A DNA stretch of 64,000 nt from Chytridium lagenaria. Taxonomy: Eukaryota > Chytridiomycota > Chytridiomycetes > Chytridiales > Chytridiaceae. The position numbers were made by a program, and so were the translations under genes. Positions 3 through 28,974 of this stretch are shown here, piece by piece (the stretch's first letter is position 1; every line of letters starts with the position of its first letter). Under the pieces are notes generated by a model. The model was not told where the DNA came from. It saw nothing but the letters and a program-made list of their open reading frames with translations, and did no database searches. The stretch is taken from NCBI GenBank assembly GCA_025449115.1, contig JAHLKC010000104.1:1-64000 (forward strand), in the 5' to 3' direction.

Positions 3-1087
3 CGTGGCCCTCGCCCTACTTCCAGGCGCGACAAAAGACGCCCTAACGGCCTCCCTTCCACCTTCAACCCAAACCGCATTGGTCAGAAGCAGTTCCAGGC
101 CTCTTTGAGCGAAACTAGTCTCCTCAATTCGCGCCTTAACGCGTTTTTCCACATAGCGGCTTCCCCTACTGCCCTCAGAACGTTCTGGAGTATCTCAAGA
201 CTGAAGCTCGTTCCGACGCTAAAGTCAACTTCCTTACCTTTGAGGACTGTCACCGTCTCGGTATCTCTCTCCTCCAGTCTGCTCCACCCACTCAGGCGGA
301 GCCTATTGACTCTAACGTCCCTCCACCTCCGTCCCCTCCCGCTAGTCGTAAGGACTCTGTCTCCTCTTACCTTGGTTCCCGCAGCTCTACCCCTCGTGTT
401 GAACCTGCCAAACCACCTACTCCTCCTAACTACTTTGGACGCCGTCCTCTCCCGGATTCGGCTTCAGAACAGATAAAGGAGATAGAGCAGCTTACTAAGT
501 CGCTGTCCACACTTCGGGTCGCCCCCGTTGATCTCCCCCCAATCGTTGAGCTTAAACGGACTCAGGAGCTTCGACTACACGCGTTAGAAGAGCTCCACGC
601 CCGTCGTTCTGATACTCGTCAGTTCCTCTACAATCAGTTGTGCAAAAACATCACTCGCCTCATTGGTGCTGGTCAGGGTCACTTGGTTCCACCTCGTCCT
701 TTGAAAGAGTTTACCGACAAGTCGTTGATTGCCAGCGCTACTAAGTATCAGAAGGCTATTTTTGATCATCTTCAAACTCTCATCAAACCTCCTGTTGAGA
801 CCTCTCAGTCTTCTAGTGATCCTACCCCTTCTACTATTACACTTGATAGTCCCGTTGCAGTCGACGAAGTTGACATTTCAGACAACTCTTCCCAAACCGC
901 ACCCTCCACCGTCAGCACCTCTTCTAAGAGATCCCGACGTCCCGTGCAGCTTTCTCTGGATACTACTGCTAGGTGCACCGCCTTGCAGCAATATTATCGT
1001 CATCCAAACGCTCAGAAAGCCCTGAGTGTTGACGCTCCTGCTTTTCACCCTGAATCCATGCAAGTTGACGAGCCATCTTCAACTTAA
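3..1087 (+). pseudogene. Retrotransposon ORF of unknown function, 5' partial, one frameshift
   Basis: An open frame runs into the window from the left, shifts once near 140-155 (next to a T run), then stays open to a TAA at 1085-1087. The product is rich in Ser, Pro and Thr in its middle and end, with a charged helical segment around 460-620 that could form a coiled coil. It contains a short motif NQLCKNITRLIGAG near 632-675. I recognise no family. It lies before gag on the same strand, with base composition like the rest of the element and 72 bp of spacer before the next ORF. It is therefore probably an element-encoded accessory protein or an N-terminal part of a long Gag, though a neighbouring host gene cannot be excluded. 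Confidence 0.45.
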
Positions 1088-1159
1088 TTGAATTACTGTG
1101 ATAGCTGTAAAAGTAATAATAAACGACGTTTCTACATTAAAACTAGTGTTTATTACATT

Positions 1160-2593
1160 ATGTCAGTACAGAAGCAAACATACTATGTTCTCTTCATGTT
1201 GGAAACCAATAGTCTTGGTTATCATCGACCTTATTGGTTTAGGTTTCGTTCAGAAGCCACCGTCCAGCCTCAAGAGACCATCGTCACTAGTCTTCTCGTT
1301 GACGTCGTCTTCTACATCCTACCCGATGGCTCTCTGGAGTTTCACAACCGCAAGTACAGTCCCTCTGACTTCAACCTTGGCATCCACATGCCTCGACGAG
1401 GCGCTTCCGCTGCGCTGGACTCTTACCTTAACCGGTTTTCCGCTCTCATCTATGATGAAGACGCCGTCAGACGCTCCATGGGATCCTCCTATGTAGCCAT
1501 TGCACCTGATATACCCTTTAAGGGTCGGCAAATAAACATTCTCCATTACTTATCTTTTACAAACCTATATGTTGAAGATGGTGATGGCTTCCGCATCTTA
1601 GCTAATGCTTCACTCACCTCCAGTCTCGTCCAGGAACCAGTCCAGGAGACTGTCGAAAGCTCCATCAACGATGAAACTCCTCCAGAAGGCATCGATGATG
1701 CCCTTTCTCCATCCATCGCCGCCGAATCACCTCATATTGGTGTTGTTGGTCATCCTGACTCTCCTCGGATCAATGAATCTAACGCTGATGAGACCTCGAC
1801 TGAGGCGCTCATCGCCACTCCAATCGATCATCTTGCCGATCGGTATCCTTCATTGACTCCTAGTCCTGCACCATCCATAAACCCGCCGGTTCTCAGCGAA
1901 ACCCCCCGGCGCCACTTTCTAGAGAATGAGCTTGTGGCGTTTGAATCCTCTTCCAACGCCACTCCCTTTCAACAATATTATGACGCCACCGAGGCTTCCC
2001 TTCTTCACGAATCAGTTTCGTCCCCTGAAGCTGACCATATTGTATCTTACCAAGATTACGTTTCAAGTCCCCTTGACCCCGTAAACACTACTGTTAACAT
2101 TTCAACAGTTGAAGGTACAACAAATAGTCTAAATATAAGACATACCTCCAACACCCTCAGGGACGTGATCTCTTTCCCTTTGCCCCAGCACGTTGAAAGA
2201 CAGTACCCTACTCTACAAACTACCATGGCCGACGATGCCTTTCTCTCTGGTCTCTTTAATCGGGGAACTTCCTCCTCAAACCCTGCATCCTTTGGTGGAC
2301 GTGGAACTCGACCCTCCATCTCTCGTTCCATGCCTGCACCTGTCTCGGGAGCTACTAGCGGTTTCCGCATAAACTCCCTAGAAGATCCACCTTCACCGCC
2401 TCCTGCAACTGATCCCGCGGCTCCCATCGTGCCTCCACCAGTCCCACCTGTCGCCGCCTCTGCGCCTCCTTCTGGGCCTGGACACCTACCCTCACCCCTG
2501 GTGTCATCGGATCCACTCTCGCTGGAACTACGCTCGCTCTGCCTGCTGGAACCACTCACGTCACTATCCCCCCTTCCTTGGGATCATTTGTGA
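1160..2593 (+). CDS. Retrotransposon ORF before gag, unknown function
   Basis: The frame starts at ATG 1160 (MSVQKQTYYVLF), the first methionine after the previous stop, and runs to 2593. The first 130 or so residues look folded, with alternating hydrophobic and charged residues. The remainder is low-complexity Ser, Pro, Thr and Glu, ending in a Pro/Ala-rich stretch. Near 2480-2590 another frame reads smoothly into gag, so this may be the N-terminal half of one long Gag polyprotein split by an indel rather than a separate gene. No known domain was recognised. Possible roles are structural Gag extension or accessory protein; nothing in the sequence decides. Confidence 0.45.
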   Translation: MSVQKQTYYVLFMLETNSLGYHRPYWFRFRSEATVQPQETIVTSLLVDVVFYILPDGSLEFHNRKYSPSDFNLGIHMPRRGASAALDSYLNRFSALIYDEDAVRRSMGSSYVAIAPDIPFKGRQINILHYLSFTNLYVEDGDGFRILANASLTSSLVQEPVQETVESSINDETPPEGIDDALSPSIAAESPHIGVVGHPDSPRINESNADETSTEALIATPIDHLADRYPSLTPSPAPSINPPVLSETPRRHFLENELVAFESSSNATPFQQYYDATEASLLHESVSSPEADHIVSYQDYVSSPLDPVNTTVNISTVEGTTNSLNIRHTSNTLRDVISFPLPQHVERQYPTLQTTMADDAFLSGLFNRGTSSSNPASFGGRGTRPSISRSMPAPVSGATSGFRINSLEDPPSPPPATDPAAPIVPPPVPPVAASAPPSGPGHLPSPLVSSDPLSLELRSLCLLEPLTSLSPLPWDHL

Positions 2594-4097
2594 GCACCGG
2601 ATCCGCCTCATCCATGTCCTCCAACTCGGGAAGGATTACCGATGGATACACCGCCAAGACGGCTCAGGAGAAGGTCTCTCGCCTCAAATTCTCTGGCACC
2701 TCCGACCATGAAGCTCTCCAGTTTCTCAGTGAATTCGAGGCCATTCTCACTCCCTTTGTGGCCACAGCCGACTTCCCTATTCGTCCTTTCTCCTCCTTGG
2801 ATGCCGCCTACCAGGCTACTTGGGAACCTAGCATCCTCAAGGTGATGCTGCCCTTCTTGCACCCATCTCGCGGTGCAAGACATGGAAGGAGTTTGCCGCG
2901 CTTATCCGCGGCCACTTTGCTTCCACTACTGACGACGCCTCCATCCAGGCTCGTATAGATCGGTTTACCTGGTCACCTTCGGCCATGACGCCGTCTCTTG
3001 CGCTTGCTCAGCTGCAAAACATTAACGCTTTGCTACCTTTTAGCGCTAAATATAACGACGCTTCTCTTAAAGATCGCCTCGTCAAATCCTGTCTGGACCT
3101 ACCTTGGGCTGCTACTGCTAAGGCTACTTCTTACCATGGTTTAGCCTGGACCGATCCTCAGCTCACCGCTCTGGACTTGCAACCATATGCATACCTCTTT
3201 GGACTCCATACTTCTGGATCTGGCACCACCTCGTCCAACGACATTCAGACCCTTGCGGCTCGATCTGATCGTTTGGAGCAGCTGGTTCTCGACATGAACA
3301 AATCGTTAAAGTCTTTTCAAAGACAAAACCGACCTTTACCTCGCCAAAACCTGTTAAGTTTTGCTGTTGAAGATGTTGGACTAACCCCACCTACTTATGA
3401 TATGAGCTCTACCCTTGTAGATCGCTTTGTCACCCTTACCGTTCAGGCCGCCTCTAAGGATGCCGCCGACAATGGTCATGATGGTCCCACCGACCTTGAC
3501 GTTGTCAACTTCCAAGCTCAGGTCGAGGCTATTCGACGTGGTGATCAGCCGTATCGATCCGGCTACCCTCGCAACCAACCCCAGCATGGGAACCAAAACT
3601 ATGATCGACCTGGACCTTCCCATGGTGGTTATTCCCAGCGCCCTCCTTACCAGTCTCGCCCTCCACAGTGGTGTCCCTTTCATAACGAAAATCACTGGAG
3701 TGATTGCCCATTCAACACACTTACCAAAGAGGATCTGGAAGCCTTGCTTTCTAGCAAAGGTAAGATTTACGATTTTCTTACAAACTCTAACCCTGGTGTT
3801 AGGAAAGAAACTGGCCCCTTAAGGGTTCCCGCACATTTGGTTTTTAGTGTTGTTCATCACTTTTTCCCAAACCAACATAAAATGCCTTCATGTTTATATG
3901 ATGTTTCAAATAAAACATACATGTATTCTGATGGAACACCTATTGTGCCTTTGAAGTCTTTATTTTCTAATTCTTTAGAAGAAACAACTTTAGAAAATAC
4001 AGTTTTTATACCAGAAAGTGAGAACAACTACTTCAATTTTTGTTCTCACTCCACGCGATACAATCGTCTTGTATCGTCATCACGCCTCCGGCTTTAA
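2578..4097 (+). pseudogene. Gag capsid and zinc-knuckle region
   Basis: The region is Gag by content and position. From about 2640 it reads KVSRLKFSGTSDHEALQFL, and after a frame change at about 2870 it reads WKEFAALIRGHF. This is the typical retrotransposon gag core, with a conserved Trp-Lys-x-Phe and a following helical stretch. A helical Leu-rich segment follows to about 3330, then an Arg/Gln/Pro-rich basic stretch, then a zinc-knuckle-like motif at about 3667-3710. Its spacing is C-x2-H-x3-H-x3-C (CPFHNENHWSDC) rather than the retroviral C-x2-C-x4-H-x4-C. Similar CHHC knuckles occur in some plant and fungal Gypsy Gags. The product would form the virus-like particle and bind element RNA. 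The tail to 4097 is not recognised. Confidence 0.75.
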
Positions 4098-4881: not shown

Positions 4882-5229
4882 CCTGCCGCATTCAAAACAC
4901 ATGCGTCACCGATGCGTTGCTTGACAGCGGCTCTAACTGTAATCTTATTACTAAAAGTTTCCTCCTCAAGCTTTAGAACGAGGATAAGAATAAAGATCAC
5001 ACCCTTCTCAAACAAACGCTTCTCAAAAGGAATAGGTGGACGACAGCCCCTTCTTGGGCAATGCTCACTTAAAGTATCTCCTGGGCTAATGACCCCACGC
5101 ATTCGCAAAACTTTGACCTTTAATATAGTCGCCGCTTGCCCGCGTCCGATTATCTTGGGAACACCCACAATAAATGCTTTCCGTATGGATTTACTTGCCA
5201 GCGAAAACATTGTGCGGTATTACTACTAG
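4858..5229 (+). pseudogene. Retropepsin-like aspartic protease
   Basis: The catalytic motif reads ALLDSGSNCNLI, with the Asp codon at about 4923 inside D-S-G. About 75 codons later, in a different frame, comes the C-terminal hydrophobic-hydrophobic-Gly signature PIILGTPTINAF at about 5146-5181. This pair of motifs and their spacing match Ty3/Gypsy proteases, which cleave the Gag-Pol polyprotein inside the particle. The Asp frame ends at a TAG near 4974, so at least one indel separates the two halves. The reverse transcriptase frame starts within the end of this region. Confidence 0.75.
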
Positions 5230-7240
5230 ACAATAGTACTCAGAAACCCTCGACGGCTTCTGTTAAGTCACTTTATTCCTCGAGTGACTGCTCTTTCACC
5301 GATGACGGAAGTTCGGAGCCTGAAAGGCCACTTGACAAAGCAATACCGCCAAAAGTCTTCCATTACACCACGCCTATGAAGCTGGTCTCAAAAGGCTTTA
5401 CTTATCGTAATTCTTCACCTTTTGTACGCGTTATTGCTGTCCAGGACACCACTTTAGAGTCGGATATGACACATGCGGTAATGTGTAAGATAGACCGTCT
5501 TCCCGACGTCCCCAACTACACATATAATGTGTGTCCACGGAGCGATTTATCGGATATCGCCCCACAGTTTACTACCTTTGATCATGAAGATCTTTTCCCT
5601 GATGGCATGATTGCTCATGCCGTTAAAAGAAAGTGGAACAAAAAGGCGAAAGCCAAGTTTGAAGAAGAAATGGATGTCGTAATGAAACCTTTCCCTCTCT
5701 ACGTCACGTACACCGGGTCCTTACCGACTACGATACATGCTGGAATGGAACTTGGACGTCTTTATGACGAAGTTAAGAAATCCAATGATTTCGTTCTGAA
5801 CATCTCAGACGAGATTCAAAAGGATGAATCCATGCTTATGTCTTTATGGCTAGAAGCACAAATAAATAAGAAAATAAAGTCTCTCGACGACTTATATGTC
5901 CACTATTCTCTGTTGACGGAGCCTGAAAAGGTTTCTCGACGAGAACGACGCCGTTATCAAAGAACGAGCAAAGGACATTCAACTAAGATACCAAGGTCTT
6001 TACCTACCGAAACTCTCAAAAAGCTTCGGAAGATGGAGAAGACCGACCCCGCAATTGATGATCCCCTTATGGATCTAAGCGACAATGAGGCAGATGACCA
6101 AACTGCTCTCGCCAACGAAAGCATTAATTTACCTCCCTCAGACCTCAACGCTTTGACGGATAACGAGGTCATCGACCTTCTAAAACCATCTAAGGAAGAA
6201 GAGGAAGTTCTTTCTCGCCTCCAACCTCACGATACTACGAATGAAGATCGTATGGACTATCTTAAAAATATGATCCCTCAGTCTTTTGAAGATATCTGGA
6301 CCAAGTTTAACCTGGACCACCTTAAAAACAACCCTGAACGAATTGACGCCTTAGTGAAGTTCCTTCAACGAGGAAACAACGCTGATGTATTTCGAGAATA
6401 TATCACAACTGGCGATAAATCGCCTGGGAAGCATACTGTTGAAATTAAACCCTATGCGCGAGCACCTAACATGCCTCCTTACCCTGTGGGTTTGGAACGT
6501 GCTAAGATCATTCGCGATCATATTAGCGAAATGTTAAAAACGGGAGTCATAAGAGAGTCACGATCTCCTTACGCTTCCCCTGTATGTCTCGCCAAAAAGA
6601 AGGACGGAACCGTAAGGTTTTGCACAGACTTCAGGCGTCTTAATGAAATAACTATAAAAGATAAATATCCTTTACCAAGGATTGACGAAACCTTCGACCG
6701 ATTAGCCGGGTCAACCATATTCTCGTCGCTTGATCTGCTTTCTGGATTCTGGCAAATTCCTGTTGCGACAGAAGACCGACATAAAACCGCATTCGTCACT
6801 CCTGACGGACTTTATGAATACCTTGTAATGCCGTTTGGCTTAACTAACAGCCCACCCACTTTTCAAAGGTGCATGGACATGGTCCTTGCTGGACTGAAAT
6901 GGATAAATTGCATGGTCTATATTGATGATATTATTATCTTCTCTAAAGACGACGAATCTCACTTTGAAAATCTACAATGGTCTTTGATAGACTCTTGGAG
7001 TATAATCTAAAGTTGAAACCAAAAAAGTGTCAGTTCCTCTTTGAGGTTCTCCCATTCTTAGGACACGTCGTCTCCAAAGACGGCATAAAACCAGACCCAG
7101 ATAAGCTGACCAAGCTTGACGACTGGCCAACCCCCACCTGCTGTAAAGATGTCCAACGTTTCTTGGGCTTCACTAATTACTTTAGACGTTTGTCTACAAT
7201 TTCACTGAAGTCGCGTTCCCACTTTACAACTTGTTGAAGA
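5230..7240 (+). pseudogene. Pol: reverse transcriptase with N-terminal spacer
   Basis: The first ~1.2 kb is an acidic, Lys-rich spacer of unknown role. The RT proper starts at about 6430. Recognisable blocks in order are VIRESRSPYASPVCLAKKK, VRFCTDFRRLNE, the first catalytic Asp block FSSLDLLSGFWQI, FVTPDGLYEYLVMPFGLTNS, and the active site YIDD at 6918-6929 followed by IIIFSKD. All three catalytic Asp residues are present. A one-base deletion near 6975-6990 moves the thumb (block FLGHVVSKDGIKPD) to another frame, and another near 7190-7200 moves the RNase H. It copies element RNA into DNA. The sequence is clearly Ty3/Gypsy rather than Copia or LINE type. Confidence 0.93.
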
Positions 7241-7710
7241 AACAAAATAGTTTTACTTGGACAGATTCCTGCGAATCCTCCTTTAGACATCTTATCAAAA
7301 CATTAAAGTCCGAGGTTCAGCTCACGAATCCTCTGCCAGATGATAAGCTTGTTATTTCTTGTGACGCCTCCAAGTATGGAATTGGCGCCGCTTTATTCAT
7401 CAATAGAGATGGCATCTACCTTCCCGTTGCCTTTGCCTCGCGCACTTTGAATGAAGCTGAGCAAAATTACTCAAACACTGATAGAGAAGGTCTAGCCGTT
7501 GTATGGGCCGCAAACTTATTTGAACCCTATACATGGCATAAACCCTACCGTATAGAAACCGACCACTCTGCTCTTATCCCTTTATTTTCCAAAGGAGATC
7601 TGAAGGGCCGATTTGCTCGATGGGCTTACGCGCTTCAAGAGCATGAAATTGAATTGGTTCACATACCAGGTAAAAGTCAGGCTGTTGCCGACGCCTTATC
7701 ACGGGCTTTT
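7231..7710 (+). CDS. Pol: RNase H domain
   Basis: The domain carries the Gypsy RNase H blocks: SCDASKYGIGAALF with the first catalytic Asp at 7363-7365, PVAFASRTLNEAEQNYS, TDREGLAVVWA with the catalytic Glu, TDHSALIPLF, and the closing block VADALSRAF at about 7684-7710. It degrades the RNA strand of the RNA-DNA hybrid during reverse transcription. Like other Gypsy elements it lies between RT and integrase. What is unusual is what follows: the integrase does not begin for another 2.2 kb. Confidence 0.93.
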
Positions 7711-8926
7711 AAGCCAGAAGAAATCATAAAATCCGACGAGTCCGTCGCATCCATAATATCTGACTCTTCCCGCGCCCACATAGGTAAAAACGCGAAAGAG
7801 AAAAACAAAGCTTTACCACAAAAACATAAAGATGTAGCCAAACGCTACGACTTACAATATTCCCAAGAAGATGTTTTAATCATCACTGAAAGCGACCAAG
7901 TCGTTCCCTTACGATCTGGGTCTAAGAACTTCATCTTTTTAAGCTACCTTATTCCTCAACGCGTCCAACGCCTTTGGATAATGGAAATGAAGCCAAAGGC
8001 CGCATTGCACATTGTTGTGCAGATAGGTACTGTTCACCTCCCCGGCGAAATTACCAATAATGTAGGACTCGGCAATGCCGATTTCAACAAGGGACTTACG
8101 AGTTTCAATATGCCTATCCTGTTCACGGCGTATATGAACTCACCAAACCTTTGAAGCCTATTGACTTCAATATCTCCTTGGAGTTTGTTAACGAATCACA
8201 TTGGCGTCATATCCCAATGACGATATTTGAAAAACATCCATTAAAACGGATGAATAAACTTATAACCCACCCGCCCACCCTTGACGATTTATCTTCTCTC
8301 AAAAACGGGAGTTTGATGATAGTCATCAATGTCTTGTGAATGGAGTAATCAACCACTCACCTCCAAAGCAACTTTTTACTCCAGAGGATGTCGTTGATTA
8401 CTCCCCTCAAAAGATAGATCATTTAGAATCTGACTTTATCTTACGAATGAGCTCTTCGCGACTCCAGGATATCCTGACAGGTCAGCGAGAGTTTGAATAC
8501 CACAAGAAGGAGTTCCCGGGCATATCTAGCTTCTGGATTTGCCAGATTCCTGACGTGGAAAAGAACGATAATGGCGTAAGGAAGAAAACCCTGCCAGGGC
8601 GTATCTCACACGTTATTACCGTTGCAAAACCACTACCACCAGGAAGTGCCGACTATCCACAACCAGATAAGTATGGTCTCGGCAGCTACCTTGACACGCA
8701 TTATGCCTACCGCATTATTGAGGTACACGAAATCCCCGATGTTCTGATGGAACGAAGGATTGATAAAAATGAACCTCCCTCGTTACAAGATCTCTATAAC
8801 ATACCTACGACGCGAGGCATGCCCGCCGTCCCTCCAAAAATGATGCTTGACTATGCACCATCCCTATTAACAAAAGTGTTCCCTCCTGAGGAAAGGTCTT
8901 CCCCTTTCTTGAGCACTTCACTCAAA
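7711..8926 (+). pseudogene. Unrecognised ~400-residue spacer between RNase H and the nuclease domain
   Basis: The reading frame continues from RNase H through a Lys-rich stretch to 8154, then shifts to 8151-8339 and 8336-9034. It is not low-complexity. It contains hydrophobic, folded-looking segments such as FEYHKKEFPGISSFWICQIP and SHVITVAKPLPPGSADYP, and a run GSYLDTHYAYRIIEVHEIP. I recognise no family. It is coding in style throughout and continuous with the nuclease that follows, so it is probably part of the same Pol protein. Normal Gypsy elements have only a short tether here. Confidence 0.55.
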
Positions 8927-9720
8927 ATGGCGAGTTGGAACGTTAATAGCTTACATGCATTATGCAAAAAGTATTATAAACACAGAAAAGAAGATGAAGA
9001 TTATAACAAAGCTGAGTTCTTCGCGAATATCTAGAGCAAATGGATTACTCCATTGTATGTCTTCAAGAGACAAAATGGGCGAAGGAGCAAGAAAGCTCTG
9101 GGATCAACTTCATAACCTTTCAAAATGGAATGTTTATTCAGACGATATACGAGACGGTTCTAATGGTGTTGTAACCTTAGTCCGTAAACACATACCAGTA
9201 ATCTCGGTGCTCAAGGGCACTTCATTCACACCAAGCAACGACTTCGTTGAAGAAGGTCGCTGCCTTACCCTTTGCCTTCCTGGGCTCAACTTAGTTAATA
9301 TCTACGCACCCAATGGCACACGCCACGATCATAGACAAAAGTATAAGATGAAGTTTCTAAGCAGAGTTTATGACTTTGTGAAAGAACTCCTTCAAAAAGA
9401 TAAAACCATAGTTCTAGGCGATTTTAACATCGCGCATACCTCACTTGACGTCCGTCATCCCGCAAGGTTCCATGGATATTCTGGTTTCCGTTATGATGAA
9501 CGATCATGGCTTGACGCCTTTCTTAGACTCGGATTCTTTGACGGATTCCGAAAATGCCATCCTAACTTACCAGGATACACGTGGCATGACCCCCAACACT
9601 TTTACCAAGCTGTTTGGAGGATAGACTATGCCTTCATTGACTATAGAATACCCTGCAATTGGACTGTTGAGCACCGCTTTGTAGCCGGCCTCACTGATCA
9701 TAGCGCCGTTGAACTTACCT
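8927..9720 (+). pseudogene. ExoIII/AP-endonuclease-like (EEP) nuclease domain inside Pol
   Basis: The full set of exonuclease III/AP endonuclease motifs is present in order. They are ASWNVNSL (Asn ligand, about 8930-8953), VCLQETKWA (catalytic Glu, LQETK at 9061-9075), NIYAPNG (about 9296-9316), VLGDFNIAHTSLDV (GDFN at 9417-9428), SWLDAFLRLGFFDGFR, PGYTWHDP, WRIDYAFI (about 9615) and TDHSAVEL (catalytic Asp-His at 9696-9701). This resembles ExoIII/APE1-type enzymes, which cut DNA at abasic sites, at least as much as LINE endonucleases. Two single-base shifts, near 9030 and 9100, interrupt the N-terminal part. The domain sits downstream of RNase H and upstream of integrase in one coding stretch. 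Its role is inferred only: processing cDNA ends or nicking target DNA. Confidence 0.88.
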
Positions 9721-10860
9721 TAAGCAATGACGACGCTGCACAATACGAAGCTGACCAGTATGTCTCATTGCCCGCACTTGAAGTTGACGATGGGCCTCCT
9801 ACGAGGCTTCTACGCAAAAAGAAGAATAAAAATGCGCGTACTCAAACGCCAAAAAAGATACCCTCCGGTGCTGCTAGCAACGAGGATGAACCTGACGAAT
9901 TCTTTGCACTTGGGAAGATGTCTGATGAAATTCTCAAACTACAACTACTTGACCAAGACTTCAGAAGTTATCCAATTCCTAAAAGATGGAACTTTACCTG
10001 AGGAAGAAAATGCGAAAGCTATAGTGCTGAAAAATGCTCAGCATAGCATCATACGCGGTGAGCTTCTCTACCGCGTATTACACGTAAAAGAATATTTATT
10101 AAAGAGGTCGCCTGTGCGATTAGCTTTATGTGTCCCGCGCGGGCTCAGGCAGGTTGCCTTTGAACAAATACATGATGATATCATGACCGGTGGTCACCTT
10201 GGTGCACAGAAGTTGCTCACCACCACCCTCGAAAGGTACTGGTGGCCTACTATCCATCGCGATCTTATCAATTATGTGCGTGGATGTTCTACGTGCCAAA
10301 AATGTAAAGACTCTCTTAGGAGAGTTGGAGCTGTAAAACCCGTTCCCTTAGGTGATAAGCCTTGGGAACGCGTCGCCATAGATATTGTGGGACCACTTAA
10401 AGCAAGTAAAACCGGAAACAAGTATATTGTTGTACTGACTGATTACTTCACCCGATGGGCCGATGCTTTTGCCGTCCCTGATATAACTAGCTGACACCGT
10501 CTCCAAGATAATAGTGGAGCAATGCTTCTGCCGTTTTGGAATACCTCTGATCCTGCACTCGGATCAGGGGCAACCCTTTATTAGTGAACTTATGAAGAAG
10601 GTTAGCATAGTGCTTGGACTTCGAAGATCCTTCTCCTCACCTTACTGGCCTCAGGCCAATGGTTTGGTTGAAAGGACTAATAAAACACTATGCCAAATGA
10701 TCAGGGCATACATTAACCAAGATACCCACGATGATTGGGATGAAATCTTGCCGTACGTCATGTTCGCGTACCGAACACAGTCAACCCCACTACTCACGAG
10801 ACTCCTTTCTTGTTGATGTTTGGGCGAGACCCATTAACCCCCGCAGACCTTCGTTTTGGT
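9721..10860 (+). pseudogene. Pol: integrase (H2C2 zinc domain and DDE core)
   Basis: After a Lys-rich linker, the pre-integrase block VIQFLKDGTLPEEE appears at about 9966-10010 in a new frame. The H2C2 zinc domain follows: His at 10171 and about 10194 (HDDIMTGGHLGAQKLL), then RYWWPTIHRDL, then CSTCQKC with Cys at 10285 and 10294. The catalytic core has the first Asp in VAIDIVGPL (about 10375), the second in ILHSDQGQPFIS (about 10560, after a stop or shift near 10490), and the Glu in ANGLVERTNKTL (about 10660). It would insert element cDNA into the chromosome. All catalytic residues remain despite at least two indels. Confidence 0.92.
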
Positions 10861-12623: not shown

Positions 12624-12636
12624 AAAAACGGGAGAA
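12624..12636 (+). promoter_or_regulatory. Polypurine tract
   Basis: AAAAACGGGAGAA lies immediately before the TG that opens the putative 3' LTR, and 18 bp after the last stop codon of the element. It is all purine except one C. It is the expected primer site for plus-strand DNA synthesis. Confidence 0.65.
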
Positions 12637-12720
12637 TGTGAAGTTCTAGTGGTTTTTCACTTCACACCTTCACTTTAAGTACTAAAGTGATTCCTATTAC
12701 TTTACGTAAATGGACGCGAC
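12637..12720 (+). repeat. Left edge of 3' LTR (right end not determined)
   Basis: The LTR starts TGTGAAGTTCTAGTGG directly after the polypurine tract. The same ~63 bp occurs with few changes at 17010-17072, which shows this is a repeated terminal sequence. It holds inverted repeats: GTGAAG pairs with CTTCAC, and CACTTTA-AGTAC-TAAAGTG is a perfect 7-bp stem. The 5' LTR is outside the window, so the right-hand boundary cannot be set from this sequence. It probably lies somewhere in 12.8-13.2 kb. Confidence 0.6.
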
Positions 12721-13690
12721 TTACGCGGTCCCAAGTATAATACACGAAATCCTCTATTCTTTTCCCTTATGTTATAGGGTTTTTACTGGAAGGAGGTGAC
12801 ATAGACTTTACGCGCGTTCGAGGTATCGGCGCCGGTGTAAAGCTGTGTGTTCTGTGTTTTGTTTGTTTTTGGGTTGTATAAGTGTTTCCATTTCATGTAT
12901 TACGTTAATAGATGGATTGTTGACCTTCATTTCTGCTCTTTGAGATTTGAGGCTCCTCTGGGGCTCTCTTTGCCCATTGATCCCCCTTGCCATCCACCAT
13001 TAATATATTCAGGGAATGCCTGCCTAACCCTCTTGCTGTCGCCGCCAGGCTATTCCTCTCGCAGTCAGCTTACTGGGCTGAACCCAGGGAACAAAGGCAG
13101 CTTTGGAGCTGGTTCAATCCCAGTATTTTCGCCTCCTTAGCTGAAGCCTAGTTCTGATCCCCTATCCTTGATGGCAGGATCACGGCATGACGGGCTAGCC
13201 ATCACTCCTTCCTATGTCCCCCAATGACGTTGGCAGTTGATGCAGTGAGCAGATGCTGCATGCCCTGCTTTGCAACGTAGGCTGGAAAGGAAGTGCACAT
13301 ACAACTGGTGAAAAGGTGATTGAAGCATGGCGGAGAGTGGCTCCCCCACGGCGTGTTCTAGGACGCCAGGTGTACAAGCTACAAGGTATGTTATATGTGT
13401 TATTGCCCCTTTTATTACTAGAAACCCTTGATTGTGAGATGAGAACCCCATCCCTTGATCAGTTCACGAGAACCAAGCCAAATTAACGTCTGCTGGCCGA
13501 GCATCGAGAGTACATCGTCGACGCCGGAAACCAAGCAGGGACTTCCTACCTACAGAACGGCATGACCCATGTTCCGCTGTAGGCTCGGAACTCTAGAAGA
13601 CATCCACCCCATCTCCCCATTCGAACATGAGGACATATGGAGGGCCAGGTGTAAATAACCGATGATGTCGCAAGTTCGTTTAAACCCTAT
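12721..13690. other. Rest of LTR and unassigned sequence, no gene seen
   Basis: This stretch contains the remainder of the presumed LTR, including a T/G-rich segment at 12840-12900, and then non-coding sequence of mixed composition. Short open frames here show no recognisable domain. A T-arm-like string at about 13107-13123 was examined and rejected as a tRNA. Confidence 0.4.
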
Positions 13691-13707
13691 TTTACTCGTC
13701 TTTAACG

Positions 13708-13790
13708 GCATCCCCGTACGAGACGGACACTCCCGTACGTGCCGTACGGGACAGAACACTCCCGGCGGCCGTACGGGACACGACGTTACT
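13708..13790. repeat. CGTACGGG inverted and direct repeat cluster
   Basis: Within 80 bp the motif CCGTACGGG or its parts occurs at least five times. There is a perfect inverted repeat CCCGTAC-GTGCC-GTACGGG, and a direct repeat GCCGTACGGGACA occurs twice. Related strings recur at about 14530 (ACCGTACGGGCAGG) and 15070 (CCTACGGGACCCG). This may be the subterminal repeat of a DNA transposon or a protein-binding array. Function unknown. Confidence 0.5.
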
Positions 13791-14584
13791 GTACGTACCA
13801 GATGTATGTTTTCCTAACTCAATTTTTAAAAGACAGGATCATTCTACTTTGTTCCCCAAGTACGATCCGTCCTGTGTATCCTTTGCTTAGAGAGAAAAGA
13901 CCTCCGAGCGACAATATTGATGCTGTGAAGTGCCCAAAGTATTACAATAGGTCAAGAAAAGCAAAAACTCTTACGGCGGGAGCTATGGTTTTTCTATGCC
14001 GGCACCGTTTCTACATTGGTTTCCATATGTTTCCACATTTGAAAGTGTAAATGATGTTTTCTACAATGTTTACAAGGTTAGAACTACTTATGCTTATATT
14101 ATGAAGTAACTAAACGTTCCAAGATTCAAAGAATGCCCTCAGTACTGTGTGGCTGACAACAATTGCCATGCCGCAGATTATGTACTCTGCGAGAATTCAA
14201 ATTCTTTGAGAATTGCCGTTTCATGATTGATGACTTTCACTCGAATTCGCATAAAGGGTGCTCTGTGGCATCGCATGCAAAACATTATAGAGCTGACGTG
14301 AAAGTTGGAGACTTAAATACTAGTTATCCGGAATCAGCGAATAATGGAATGGGCAGATAGGGAACTCCACTGCTTATATGAGTGAAAGTCACGCCATCAT
14401 GACGGTTCAGACATATGTATGTATGAGCAACAGAAAACAACATCAGAAACTTGATTCAATGGGAGAGGAAAGGTTTTTGGACCAATACAGATGCCGACAG
14501 AGCAGATAAAGAATAAAGTAGCGGAGTAGGACACCGGACAACCGTACGGGCAGGGGTGACCGGTACCTCAATAATAATTTTTTT

Positions 14585-15055
14585 TTGAAAACTTTTCATC
14601 AAATGATATACGGTTAGAGGTATCTGATGCTGCGATGTCTCCACAGTCTGCTGGCACCACGGCATTTAGAGCGCTGGAAGCAGTACAAGATGATTGTGGA
14701 GATTCTGGAACATTTGTTGAGGGTTTAACGCGGATTGCTTGCGATTTGGTAAAGCATTACGAGAGAATGTATTTTCGTCGAGGATAGGCATATAATTAAC
14801 GACGGCCCGTCCGGGCCCGGTCAGACCGGTCCTGCCATTTTCAATTTTTTCGAAAATTTTGATCAAATGATATACGGTTAGAGGTATCTGATGCTGCGAT
14901 GTCTCCACAGTCTGCTGGCACCACGGCATTTAGAGCGCTGGAAGCAGTACAAGATGATTGTGGCGATTCTGGGAACATTTGTTGAGGGTTTAACGCGGAT
15001 TGAGTGCGATTTGGGCAAGCATTACGAGAGAATGCATTTTCGTCGAAAGAGGAAT
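14585..15055 (+). repeat. Tandem duplication, ~200-bp units offset by 264 bp
   Basis: The sequence from ATCAAATGATATACGG at 14598 to about 14785 recurs almost exactly from 14862 to about 15050. The two units are separated by a ~65-bp GC-rich spacer. Within the unit a short frame reads MSPQSAGTTAFRALEAV and continues to KHYERM. It looks like a piece of a coding exon, and the second copy differs by an extra G that breaks the frame. I do not recognise the protein. It is a recent local duplication in a repeat-rich region. Confidence 0.75.
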
Positions 15056-17009: not shown

Positions 17010-17072
17010 TGTCAAGTTCTTGTGGTTTTTCACTTCACACCTTCACTTTAAGTACTTAAGTGATTTCTATTA
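17010..17072 (+). repeat. Truncated second copy of the Gypsy LTR edge
   Basis: TGTCAAGTTCTTGTGG and what follows match 12637-12699 with only a few differences across ~63 bp, then similarity stops at CTATTA. It retains the inverted repeat around AAGTACTTAAGTG. It may be a remnant solo LTR cut by the inverted-repeat element that begins right after it. Confidence 0.7.
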
Positions 17073-25706: not shown

Positions 25707-28700
25707 ATGGCCACCCTCGCCGATCGCTACCCCTTCCTCACCTTTGCCAACTTTCTCGACTCCATTCAAAGAGAACGAGCTATCAAAACCAAGCGCACAA
25801 AAATGTACCGCTTCATTAAGGTAACCCCAATCCTCGCCGAAGCAACTCCAAATTATGTAAGGAATGGCGAGAGTCCTGGCGACGACTTTTTCCCCGGCCC
25901 TCCGTCTCCTTGTCCCTCATCTTGACAAAGATCGCGCCACATACGGTATCAAAGATAAGATGCTTGCCACATTGTACATAGAGATCTTGTCAATACCAGA
26001 ATACATTGGATGCGGAGAGTCTTGTGAATTGGAAACGACCGGGGAGTGGAAGAGTGTTGGGGATTTTGGGAGATGCTTTACAGTGTTGTTAAGAACCGTG
26101 CTGTTAGTGGGGTGGGGCATGACGGTGGGGAGTGTGAATGAGAAGTTGGGATTGTTGAATGCTTGTGATAATACGTAGTATGGTTTACCTGTGATTCTCT
26201 TATTGTTGAAAGGAAGGAGAGAGGTGAAGTGATAAGGTACTTTGCGACGCATTGTACAGCTATCGAACAGAAATGGATTGCGCGTATCATTTTAAAAGGT
26301 TAGGCTACCCCGTATGCCCGTTACCGATTTTTGTAGATTTGCGATGGGAGTCACCGAAACCACCGTCTTCAACGCCTGGCATCCCGAAGCCGAAGATATG
26401 TTCAACGTCAGCAGCAGTCTATCCAAAGTCGCTCGTGAACTGAACGATCTTTCAAAAACCTTTGCATCAAAGGTATTCGCGCTTCCTTGACTTGATTTAA
26501 TTGACAAATAGGATATCGTGTTCGGGTCACCCTTTAAACCTATGCTCGCGAAAAGCTGTAAATCGGTATCAAGCGTTGAAAAAACTATGAAGGGGCAGAT
26601 GTTTTGGATACAGACAAAGCTGGATGGAGAGAGGATGCAGTTGCATAAAGAGGGAGATAAGTATATGTGGTTTTCGAGGTTAGGATTTTATGATCTGTTA
26701 TCTCGTGCACGTTTATTCATTATTTAAGAAATGCGAAGGATTATACGTCGCTTTATGGTGAACATGCGAACGAAAGTTTGCAAAATCCATTCACGGATGT
26801 TTTCATTCGGATTTGAACAAGTATCAGTTTATAATGTTGGACATGTGGAGTTGATATTTCATAGTTGTATTCTAGACGGTGAACTTCTTTCCTACTCTTC
26901 TCAGACCGGTCTTTTTGAAGGCTTCGGTGTACTAAAAACTGCCGCTAATCGATTAAACGAGCAAGGTGAAACAGCTTTCAATTTATACGCTAAAAATGAA
27001 ATAGGAGAAGAGGAAGCTGCTTCATGGCCCTGCTTTATTATATTCGACGTGTTATACGTCAATGGCCAAAGTCTTCTTACCTCACCCTCAACCATCGTTA
27101 CAAACTCCTTGAAAGGATTTTGACACCTCGAGAGAATTTCTTACAGATATTGGAGTACCAGGAATCCAAGACGACGCTGGATGTAATTCAAGGTCTCGAC
27201 TTAAGGATGATCCAACATCAGGAGGGGATTATCATTAAGACCCTACATCCCCATACCTTTTGAACGAACGTGGCGACAGTTGGTTAAAACTCAAGCCCGA
27301 CTACATTGATTCCCTCGGTGACGACGTTGACCTCCTCCTCGTTGGCGGTTTCTTTGGCACAGGTCGACGGAGCGGTAAACTCAGTCATTTCATGTGCGCG
27401 CTCAAAGTGGAGGAAGAGGGGGGCTTGACGCGGTATGTAAGTTTCTGTAAATTTGGTAGTGGTTTATACCATGAATGAGATTGAGGAGGTGTCACATGAG
27501 GGGGAGGGACATTGGAGACGGTTCGATCCGAAACGACCACCTTCATGGTTTGAACATCCGGTGGGGAGCAAGGAGAGACCGGATATGATATTGGCGCCGG
27601 AGCATTCGAGGGTTGTTTGTGTGAAGGCGGCAGAGATTGTGAGATCTGAGCAGTGAGTAATATGTATATGCAAAATAAATGTTGATGTTTGGTTGTGTTT
27701 AGGTATGCTGCTGGTTGGACGTTAAGGTTTCCGAGGTTCGTGAGGATTCGACATGACAAACGCGTTGATGATGTGATGTCTGTGGTGGACTTGCAGACGT
27801 ATATTTTGAGGAATAATGGACGGATGCAGAGTCGACGGCTTGGGGTTGATGGAGGGGAGAAGGTGAAGAGGACGAGAATTGCGGCGAGACGGGGTATTGC
27901 TGCGAGTGTGCCTATGGCTTATAGGAGTGGTGGGGAGGCGTTGTGAAGGAGAGTGAGGTGTTGGAGGGAGTTGAAGTTTGTGTTGTGCCTGGAGCGGTGG
28001 AAGAGAAGCATGGGTTGGAACAGCTGGTTGTGAGGATGGGAGGAACGTGCGTGCAGAATCCGAGGAGGGGAGAAAACAAATTATGTGATTGCAGATAAAA
28101 TCAGTAGGACTCATTTTTGTTGTGCTGTCAAACGATGATGCTTTTTTTAGTTGCGCGAGTATCAAAATCAGATCGATAAGAAGTATGATGTAGTTAAATC
28201 GCGATGGCTTAGGGATTGTTTGAAAAGCGGGAAGAAAGTTGCATTGCAGCCTCGACATATGTTGTATGCGACGGAGGAGACACCGGGCGTTGTTGTTGGA
28301 AAGTAATGATCGGTTCGGCGATAGTTATACGGAGAATGTGACCATTGAAAGCTTGAAAGAGGTGAGGTCTTTCTATACCCCCCTGTTGTTATTTTTTTTT
28401 GACGTTCGGGTAAAAAGTGCTTCGATTCTATCGATTATCCAACGCGAAAACGAAAGTCCGAGAGTGATTTTGAAGTGAGACTGAAGGCTGTAAAACTAGT
28501 TTCGGAGGTAGAGGAGAGAGTTTTTGGGATGGCGCCTATTCTAGGGAGCTTGTTCAGGAGAATGGTGTTTTATATGGATGGAGGTGGGGTGATCCTGGCG
28601 ACACCGAGTATGGTTGGTGGGGATATGGAGCGGGAATATGAGAACGTTAAATTGTCGGTGACGACGAAAAGAGGGTGCCAATTGAGCACGAGACGTATTC

Positions 28701-28974
28701 GTCTCTCGACACGCTCTCCGTTCGGATAAGGTGCTGTGGAGGAGTTGTGACGAGGGTTCTGAGCCCTGACGTCACGCATATTGTTGTTGAGACGGATGGA
28801 GATGTTGTGGGGACTGGGAAGAGGGTGAAATTGGGATGGAGGGAGAGACGGGCCGTGTTTTTGCGGTTTCTGGTGAATTACCCGGATAGGCATGAGAGAC
28901 GACCGCATGTTGTGACGACGGCGTGGGTGAAGAGGAGCGTTGAGCAGCAGAGCGTACAGCCTGATGAGCAATAA
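25707..28974 (+). CDS. LIG4: DNA ligase IV (NHEJ), multi-exon, several apparent frameshifts
   Basis: The gene starts at ATG 25707 (MATLADRYPFLTFANFLD). The DNA-binding domain includes FSPALRLLVPHLDKDRATYG and IKDKMLATLYIEIL. The catalytic core has the adenylation motif TKLDGERMQLHKEGD with the active-site Lys at 26617-26619, ILDGELLSYS, FIIFDVLYVNGQSL, HQEGIIIKTLHP and SWLKLKPDYIDSLGDDVDL. The OB-fold has KAAEIVRSEQ and WTLRFPRFVRIRHDK. Two BRCT repeats follow: about 27940-28290 (ending KYDVVKSRWLRDCLKSG) and about 28690-28950 (VLSPDVTHIVVE). That is the LIG4 layout. The enzyme seals double-strand breaks with XRCC4/Lif1. Frame changes near 26065, 26115, 27255, 28075 and 28305 are not explained by introns. 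Confidence 0.92.

Follow-up and report, generated by a model that had tools for sequence, protein, structure and literature searches.

A Ty3/Gypsy lineage with an exonuclease III/APE1-type nuclease between RNase H and integrase in the chytrid Chytridium lagenaria

The first 64 kb of contig C104 (JAHLKC010000104.1, positions 1-64,000; here called the window) in the 41.9-Mb assembly of the chytrid water fungus Chytridium lagenaria carries on its plus strand a Ty3/Gypsy long terminal repeat (LTR) retrotransposon. In the Pol polyprotein of this element and its relatives, a nuclease of the exonuclease III (ExoIII)/APE1 type, belonging to the endonuclease/exonuclease/phosphatase (EEP) domains, lies between RNase H and integrase. 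The arrangement occurs in many copies, its active site is intact, and the nuclease is under purifying selection. The reading favored here is that a Ty3/Gypsy Pol, which kept its reverse transcriptase (RT), RNase H and DDE integrase, gained this enzyme and uses it on its own cDNA; with the function included, it has about an even chance of being correct. The gain of a repair-type EEP nuclease by a lineage that retained integrase had been proposed from the letters of the window (the original prediction). This part is supported by open frames, by colinearity at 30 of 56 loci, by other chytrids, by concordant trees and by a low dN/dS in the one close pair that is not saturated. The roles suggested along with it (processing of cDNA ends, removal of RNA or abasic sites, target nicking) are conjectural.

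Architecture and copies of the element

In the window the element reads RVT_1, RT_RNaseH, EEP nuclease, Integrase_H2C2 and a split, weak integrase core (rve), followed by an LTR; its 5' LTR would fall before the start of the contig. The EEP motifs are found in the order originally described, all on the plus strand (WNVN at 8936, LQET at 9061, YAPNG at 9303, GDFN at 9417, RIDY at 9618 and TDH at 9693), and a PF03372 match stands there between RT_RNaseH upstream and Integrase_H2C2 downstream. The six motifs are spread over three reading frames and the window copy is therefore broken. The description of the sequence as coding-style thus fails for this copy but holds for others. A frame of 1145 amino acids (aa) on C76 runs from the tail of RNase H through the nuclease to integrase, and frames of 1604 aa on C95 and 2573 aa on C198 each include RT, RNase H, EEP, H2C2 and rve. 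Since it is present in open frames elsewhere in the genome, the order RNase H, nuclease, integrase is real.

Window DNA from 7700 to 10000 matches 37 places in the genome. Locus counts, which are lower bounds, were built from the places where 82 RNase H, 84 H2C2 and 117 xth matches lie; a Gypsy locus was defined as an RNase H match with H2C2 no more than 3.5 kb downstream on the same strand (n = 56). At least 30 of these 56 loci have the nuclease between the two domains, with gaps of 1222-2545 bp. The xth matches form 77 clusters, of which 30 have both neighbors, 4 RNase H only, 18 H2C2 only and 25 neither. The original prediction had named two observations that would speak against it, copies lacking the EEP region and a nested insertion of a long interspersed nuclear element (LINE); the region is present in other copies and forms part of continuous frames.

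LTR-bounded copies had also been called for, and C109 supplies a complete element with the nuclease in it. The queried pol region is enclosed by LTR matches at 12941-13962 and 27732-28840; the LTRs start with TGTGAAG and end with CA, and the element is bordered on either side by AGAT, a 4-bp duplication (5 bp if a shared A is counted). An insertion of ~4.8 kb (C109:18507-23334) is located between query positions 471 and 474, in the RNase H-nuclease interval and upstream of the nuclease, for which it does not account. The LTR of the window gave 48 matches in the genome, many of them spanning query positions 78 to 1113.

Identity of the nuclease and of the preceding stretch

The curated cut-off of TIGR00633 (xth) is passed by 10 of 10 domains, and segment 9132-9719 of the broken window nuclease alone reaches 108.5 bits against a cut-off of 99.05. 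The catalytic residues N, E, Y, D, N, D, D and H, whose identities we take from APE1, are complete in 11 of 11 one-frame domains, while five partial domains show no substitution. Modeling of the fold, as suggested originally, placed the domain in the same family, all 50 of the structural matches listed being ExoIII/APE1. On the nuclease profile, C11 scores 129 bits and P0019, described below, 185 bits, whereas the LINE nucleases of the same genome score 3.1-13.4 bits; a CCR4-like host EEP protein scores 10.6 bits.

In most members examined, the nuclease is preceded by a conserved stretch with a predicted PUA-like (ASCH/YTH) fold. Neither this stretch nor the brokenness of the window copy was mentioned in the original prediction. 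Identification as ASCH by sequence failed: none of five members matched an ASCH family in Pfam, PF04266 had no match in the genome, and a profile search of the PDB returned only a ribosomal protein (E 1.7). A second, tandem PUA-like copy possibly lies ahead of the first in C198 and C324, with an hhalign probability of only 68%.

Evolution and selection

Relatives were drawn from the best 120 of 333 proteins; 22 of the proteins labeled P were scored on the profile and 21 of them entered the nuclease tree, which left out C120, C182 and C184 (partial domains), P0101, and the host genes resembling APN2 and CCR4. A single clade (100/100) on a long stem holds the main group, A (12 rows). Group A is also recovered by the integrase tree (7 rows, 96/98) and the RT tree (4 rows, 96/100), as expected from one gain followed by inheritance. 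The comparison with LINE nucleases proposed at the outset gave a divided answer, in that these are parted from group A in the nuclease tree (99/99) but the approximately unbiased (AU) test does not reject their grouping with it (p 0.279). Joining group A with group B (p 0.199) or with P0019 (p 0.299) is not rejected either, and the nuclease tree thus points to no one source. A host AP endonuclease was considered as the source and set aside, the only host-like relative recognized being an APN2-like gene on C26 (L074, identified by eye; 46 bits on a partial exon). Endonuclease IV (TIGR00587) has no match in the genome, against matches in 10 of 14 control genomes, though introns could hide the gene.

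Group B (C11, C137 and C115) is a second, very divergent Gypsy group that also reads RNase H, nuclease, integrase; its nuclease follows RNase H directly, with no room for the PUA-like stretch. A protein search with group B gave 14 proteins, with no Gypsy domains among the matches listed. P0019, a Gypsy-like polyprotein of 2000 aa from a Logan sequence, has the order nuclease, a stretch with weak Dam and PCIF1_WW matches, RT, RNase H and integrase. On integrase, placing it with group A is rejected (p 0.0085), while groups A and B together are rejected neither on integrase (p 0.115) nor on RT (p 0.259). LTR elements have likely captured such nucleases more than once; for group B, the AU test leaves a common gain unrejected.

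The pair C76 and C155 gives dN/dS values of 0.11 in the nuclease (249 codons), 0.18 in integrase (319 codons) and 0.41 in the PUA-like stretch (149 codons). In the nuclease of C198 and C324 the synonymous sites are saturated (pS 0.81) and pN is 0.18. The nuclease is under purifying selection.

Relatives of the element have been found in other chytrids and sequence sets. In Phlyctochytrium bullatum, P0004 combines the nuclease with H2C2, and in Dinochytrium kinnereticum the partial proteins P0014 and P0095 hold the PUA-like stretch and run into the beginning of the nuclease, with no further pol domain visible. Among ENA sequences, P0002 includes RNase H, nuclease, H2C2 and rve, and P0003 nuclease, H2C2 and rve. 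A scan of viral contigs showed no relative.

Function of the nuclease

Reverse transcription and integration suffer from abasic sites and blocked 3' ends, lesions that enzymes of the ExoIII/APE1 family remove. In the favored reading, the nuclease would be made as part of Pol, enter the virus-like particle and act on the cDNA of the element, cutting at abasic sites, clearing blocked 3' ends and perhaps leftover RNA, and intact LTR ends would thereby reach integrase. Such a role would resemble that of a Pol-borne dUTPase, mending damage rather than preventing it. Repair is the most economical role because these lesions are both harmful to the element and substrates of the family, and because the Pol of some retroviruses and retrotransposons is known to carry dUTPase, an enzyme that counters uracil.

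Several points weigh against this reading. The nuclease is absent from 26 of the 56 Gypsy loci (gaps of 199-496 bp), and the stricter ExoIII model, TIGR00195, is passed by none of 10 domains. The complete domains were selected for having open frames, and the dN/dS values come from one unsaturated pair, most other pairs being saturated and giving no ratio. The fold and active site fit an AP endonuclease, a 3'-5' exonuclease, a 3' phosphatase or an RNase H-like activity equally well and do not fix the substrate. The evidence on the element nuclease is drawn from sequence and structural matches.

Among the alternatives, the one that fares best, still unlikely, is a role at the target site, where the nuclease would nick chromosomal DNA or use chromosomal abasic sites, giving LINE-like or nick-dependent insertion beside integrase. 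The domain adjoins integrase in Pol, and EEP nucleases nick targets in LINEs. However, the profile scores given above make it ExoIII/APE1-type rather than LINE-type, enzymes of the former type are structure-directed, and integrase has been kept, the C109 copy having ordinary LTR ends and a 4-bp repeat.

A little less probable is a reader role for the PUA-like stretch, which would recognize a modified base and guide the nuclease there, whether in cDNA or in the DNA of the host. The wider proposal, that one or two PUA-like readers and the ExoIII/APE1 nuclease in Gypsy Pol find and cut modified bases in cDNA or host chromatin and so steer repair or integration, is slightly more doubtful again. 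N6-methyladenine in DNA, a possible target, has been reported as common in early-diverging fungi. If such a cassette exists, group B and P0019 would mean that such nucleases were taken up by LTR elements more than once.

An action on RNA, such as primer removal, RNA decay or deadenylation, is improbable. The domain comes after RNase H and some EEP enzymes do work on RNA, but the CCR4-like host protein hardly matches the profile and the listed structural matches are uniformly ExoIII/APE1. Finally, the idea that the nuclease is a piece of a LINE nested in a single copy, or an artefact of assembly, can be dismissed. The copy in the window is broken, LINEs with EEP domains (identified by eye) are present in the genome and the AU test tolerates a grouping with LINE nucleases, but nesting is ruled out by the open frames across the nuclease in C76, C95 and C198 and by the recurrence of the order at 30 loci, relatives occur in other species, and family models and folds indicate ExoIII.

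Features of the window and of other loci

Table 1. Coordinates of the window element and of related features at other loci
Feature	Locus	Position	Strand	Evidence or remark
Protease-like stretch, presumably a retroviral-type protease	window	4885..5229	+	DSGS at 4923, ILGTP at 5152, different frames; no profile match
Reverse transcriptase core	window	6594..6974	+	PF00078 RVT_1, E 2e-28, residues 491-617 of frame 5124-7007
RNase H	window	7336..7641	+	PF17917 (RT_RNaseH), E 3.6e-29
Possible second PUA-like copy	window	7850-8230		similar words, broken frames
Conserved stretch preceding nuclease, predicted PUA-like (ASCH/YTH) fold	window	8426..8923	+	
ExoIII/APE1-type EEP nuclease, broken over three frames	window	8924..9719	+	PF03372, E 3.3e-10 (frame 8913-10001)
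Integrase zinc domain H2C2	window	10132..10311	+	PF17921, E 6.5e-19
Integrase core, split between two frames	window	10357..10651	+	rve PF00665 partial, E 0.075 and 8.4e-6, both below Pfam cut-off
Putative polypurine tract	window	12624..12636	+	AAAAACGGGAGAA, abutting LTR
3' LTR, 1036 bp, TG...CA	window	12637..13672	+	ends read from sequence
Possible second PUA-like copy	L041	4501-4902		
Possible second PUA-like copy	L050	2938-3342		
Group B locus	L052 (C11)	1030-2991		
Group B locus	L053 (C137)			
Group B locus	L078 (C115)	231-3689		

Downstream of the element, a unit of ~265 bp is present in two tandem copies, 93-96% alike (14581-15046), and a 63-bp piece at 17010-17072, 94% like the LTR start at 12637, is perhaps a further LTR fragment. 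A public gene model, P0001 (C. lagenaria BC829DRAFT_438990), is a hypothetical protein of 735 aa that contains the PUA-like stretch together with the opening part of the nuclease; element sequence has therefore been annotated as a host gene. Five other proteins (P0059, P0075, P0077, P0079 and P0087), two of which were placed in the nuclease tree, join an N-terminal EEP domain to RVT_1 and group II intron maturase-type domains (PF13655, PF08388), and ExoIII-type nucleases may thus also have joined other reverse transcriptases.

Relation to known elements

An EEP domain in a retrotransposon is common to this lineage and to LINEs, but the LINE nucleases branch apart and score low on the profile. 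LINEs are not known to have LTRs or a DDE integrase. Kojima and Fujiwara (2005) reportedly described LINEs with two endonucleases. Compared with ExoIII/APE1 (TIGR00633) itself, the element nuclease is a domain of a retrotransposon polyprotein, forms its own clade and does not pass TIGR00195. With chromovirus-type Ty3/Gypsy elements the lineage shares the usual order of RT, RNase H, H2C2 and rve as well as LTRs. At the C-terminus of the C198 frame there is a weak Chromo match (E 0.00041, 20.7 bits) that falls below the cut-off of 25.1. It differs from them in the RNase H-integrase interval, which holds the nuclease and mostly also the PUA-like stretch where ordinary loci have 199-496 bp.

Other accessory enzymes have been described in such elements. 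dUTPase, which guards cDNA from uracil and abasic damage, is carried in Pol and lies between RT and integrase in some retroviruses (PMC5408684); it is another enzyme at another step, prevention instead of the repair proposed here. KnitGypsy captured Dnmt3, which is under purifying selection with Ka/Ks <0.2 (PMC5890265), an orchid Gypsy carries an RNA demethylase open reading frame (PMC9289625), and bdelloid elements have a DEDDy exonuclease, ORF3, downstream of pol (PMC5408684). These are likewise enzymes gained by LTR elements, and none is an EEP nuclease. A survey of 1237 fungal genomes ascribes Exo_endo_phos in transposon fusions to LINEs (PMC10799480), unspecified extra domains are mentioned in complex copies (PMC3248453), and other accessory domains are listed (PMC6338049, PMC12440569). 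No LTR element with an EEP domain was found in the literature covered, which lies outside most subscription papers, bioRxiv preprints and Repbase.

Significance

Descriptions of LTR retroelements list protease, RT, RNase H and integrase and assign the repair of their cDNA to the host. That one lineage maintains an ExoIII/APE1-type enzyme of its own suggests that damaged cDNA, abasic or blocked at the 3' end, can be a limit on retrotransposition, and this lineage offers a natural system in which the limit can be tested. A repair nuclease thereby joins the enzymes known to be taken up by Pol. An EEP domain in a fungal genome may come from an LTR element and not only from a LINE, which calls for caution in annotation.
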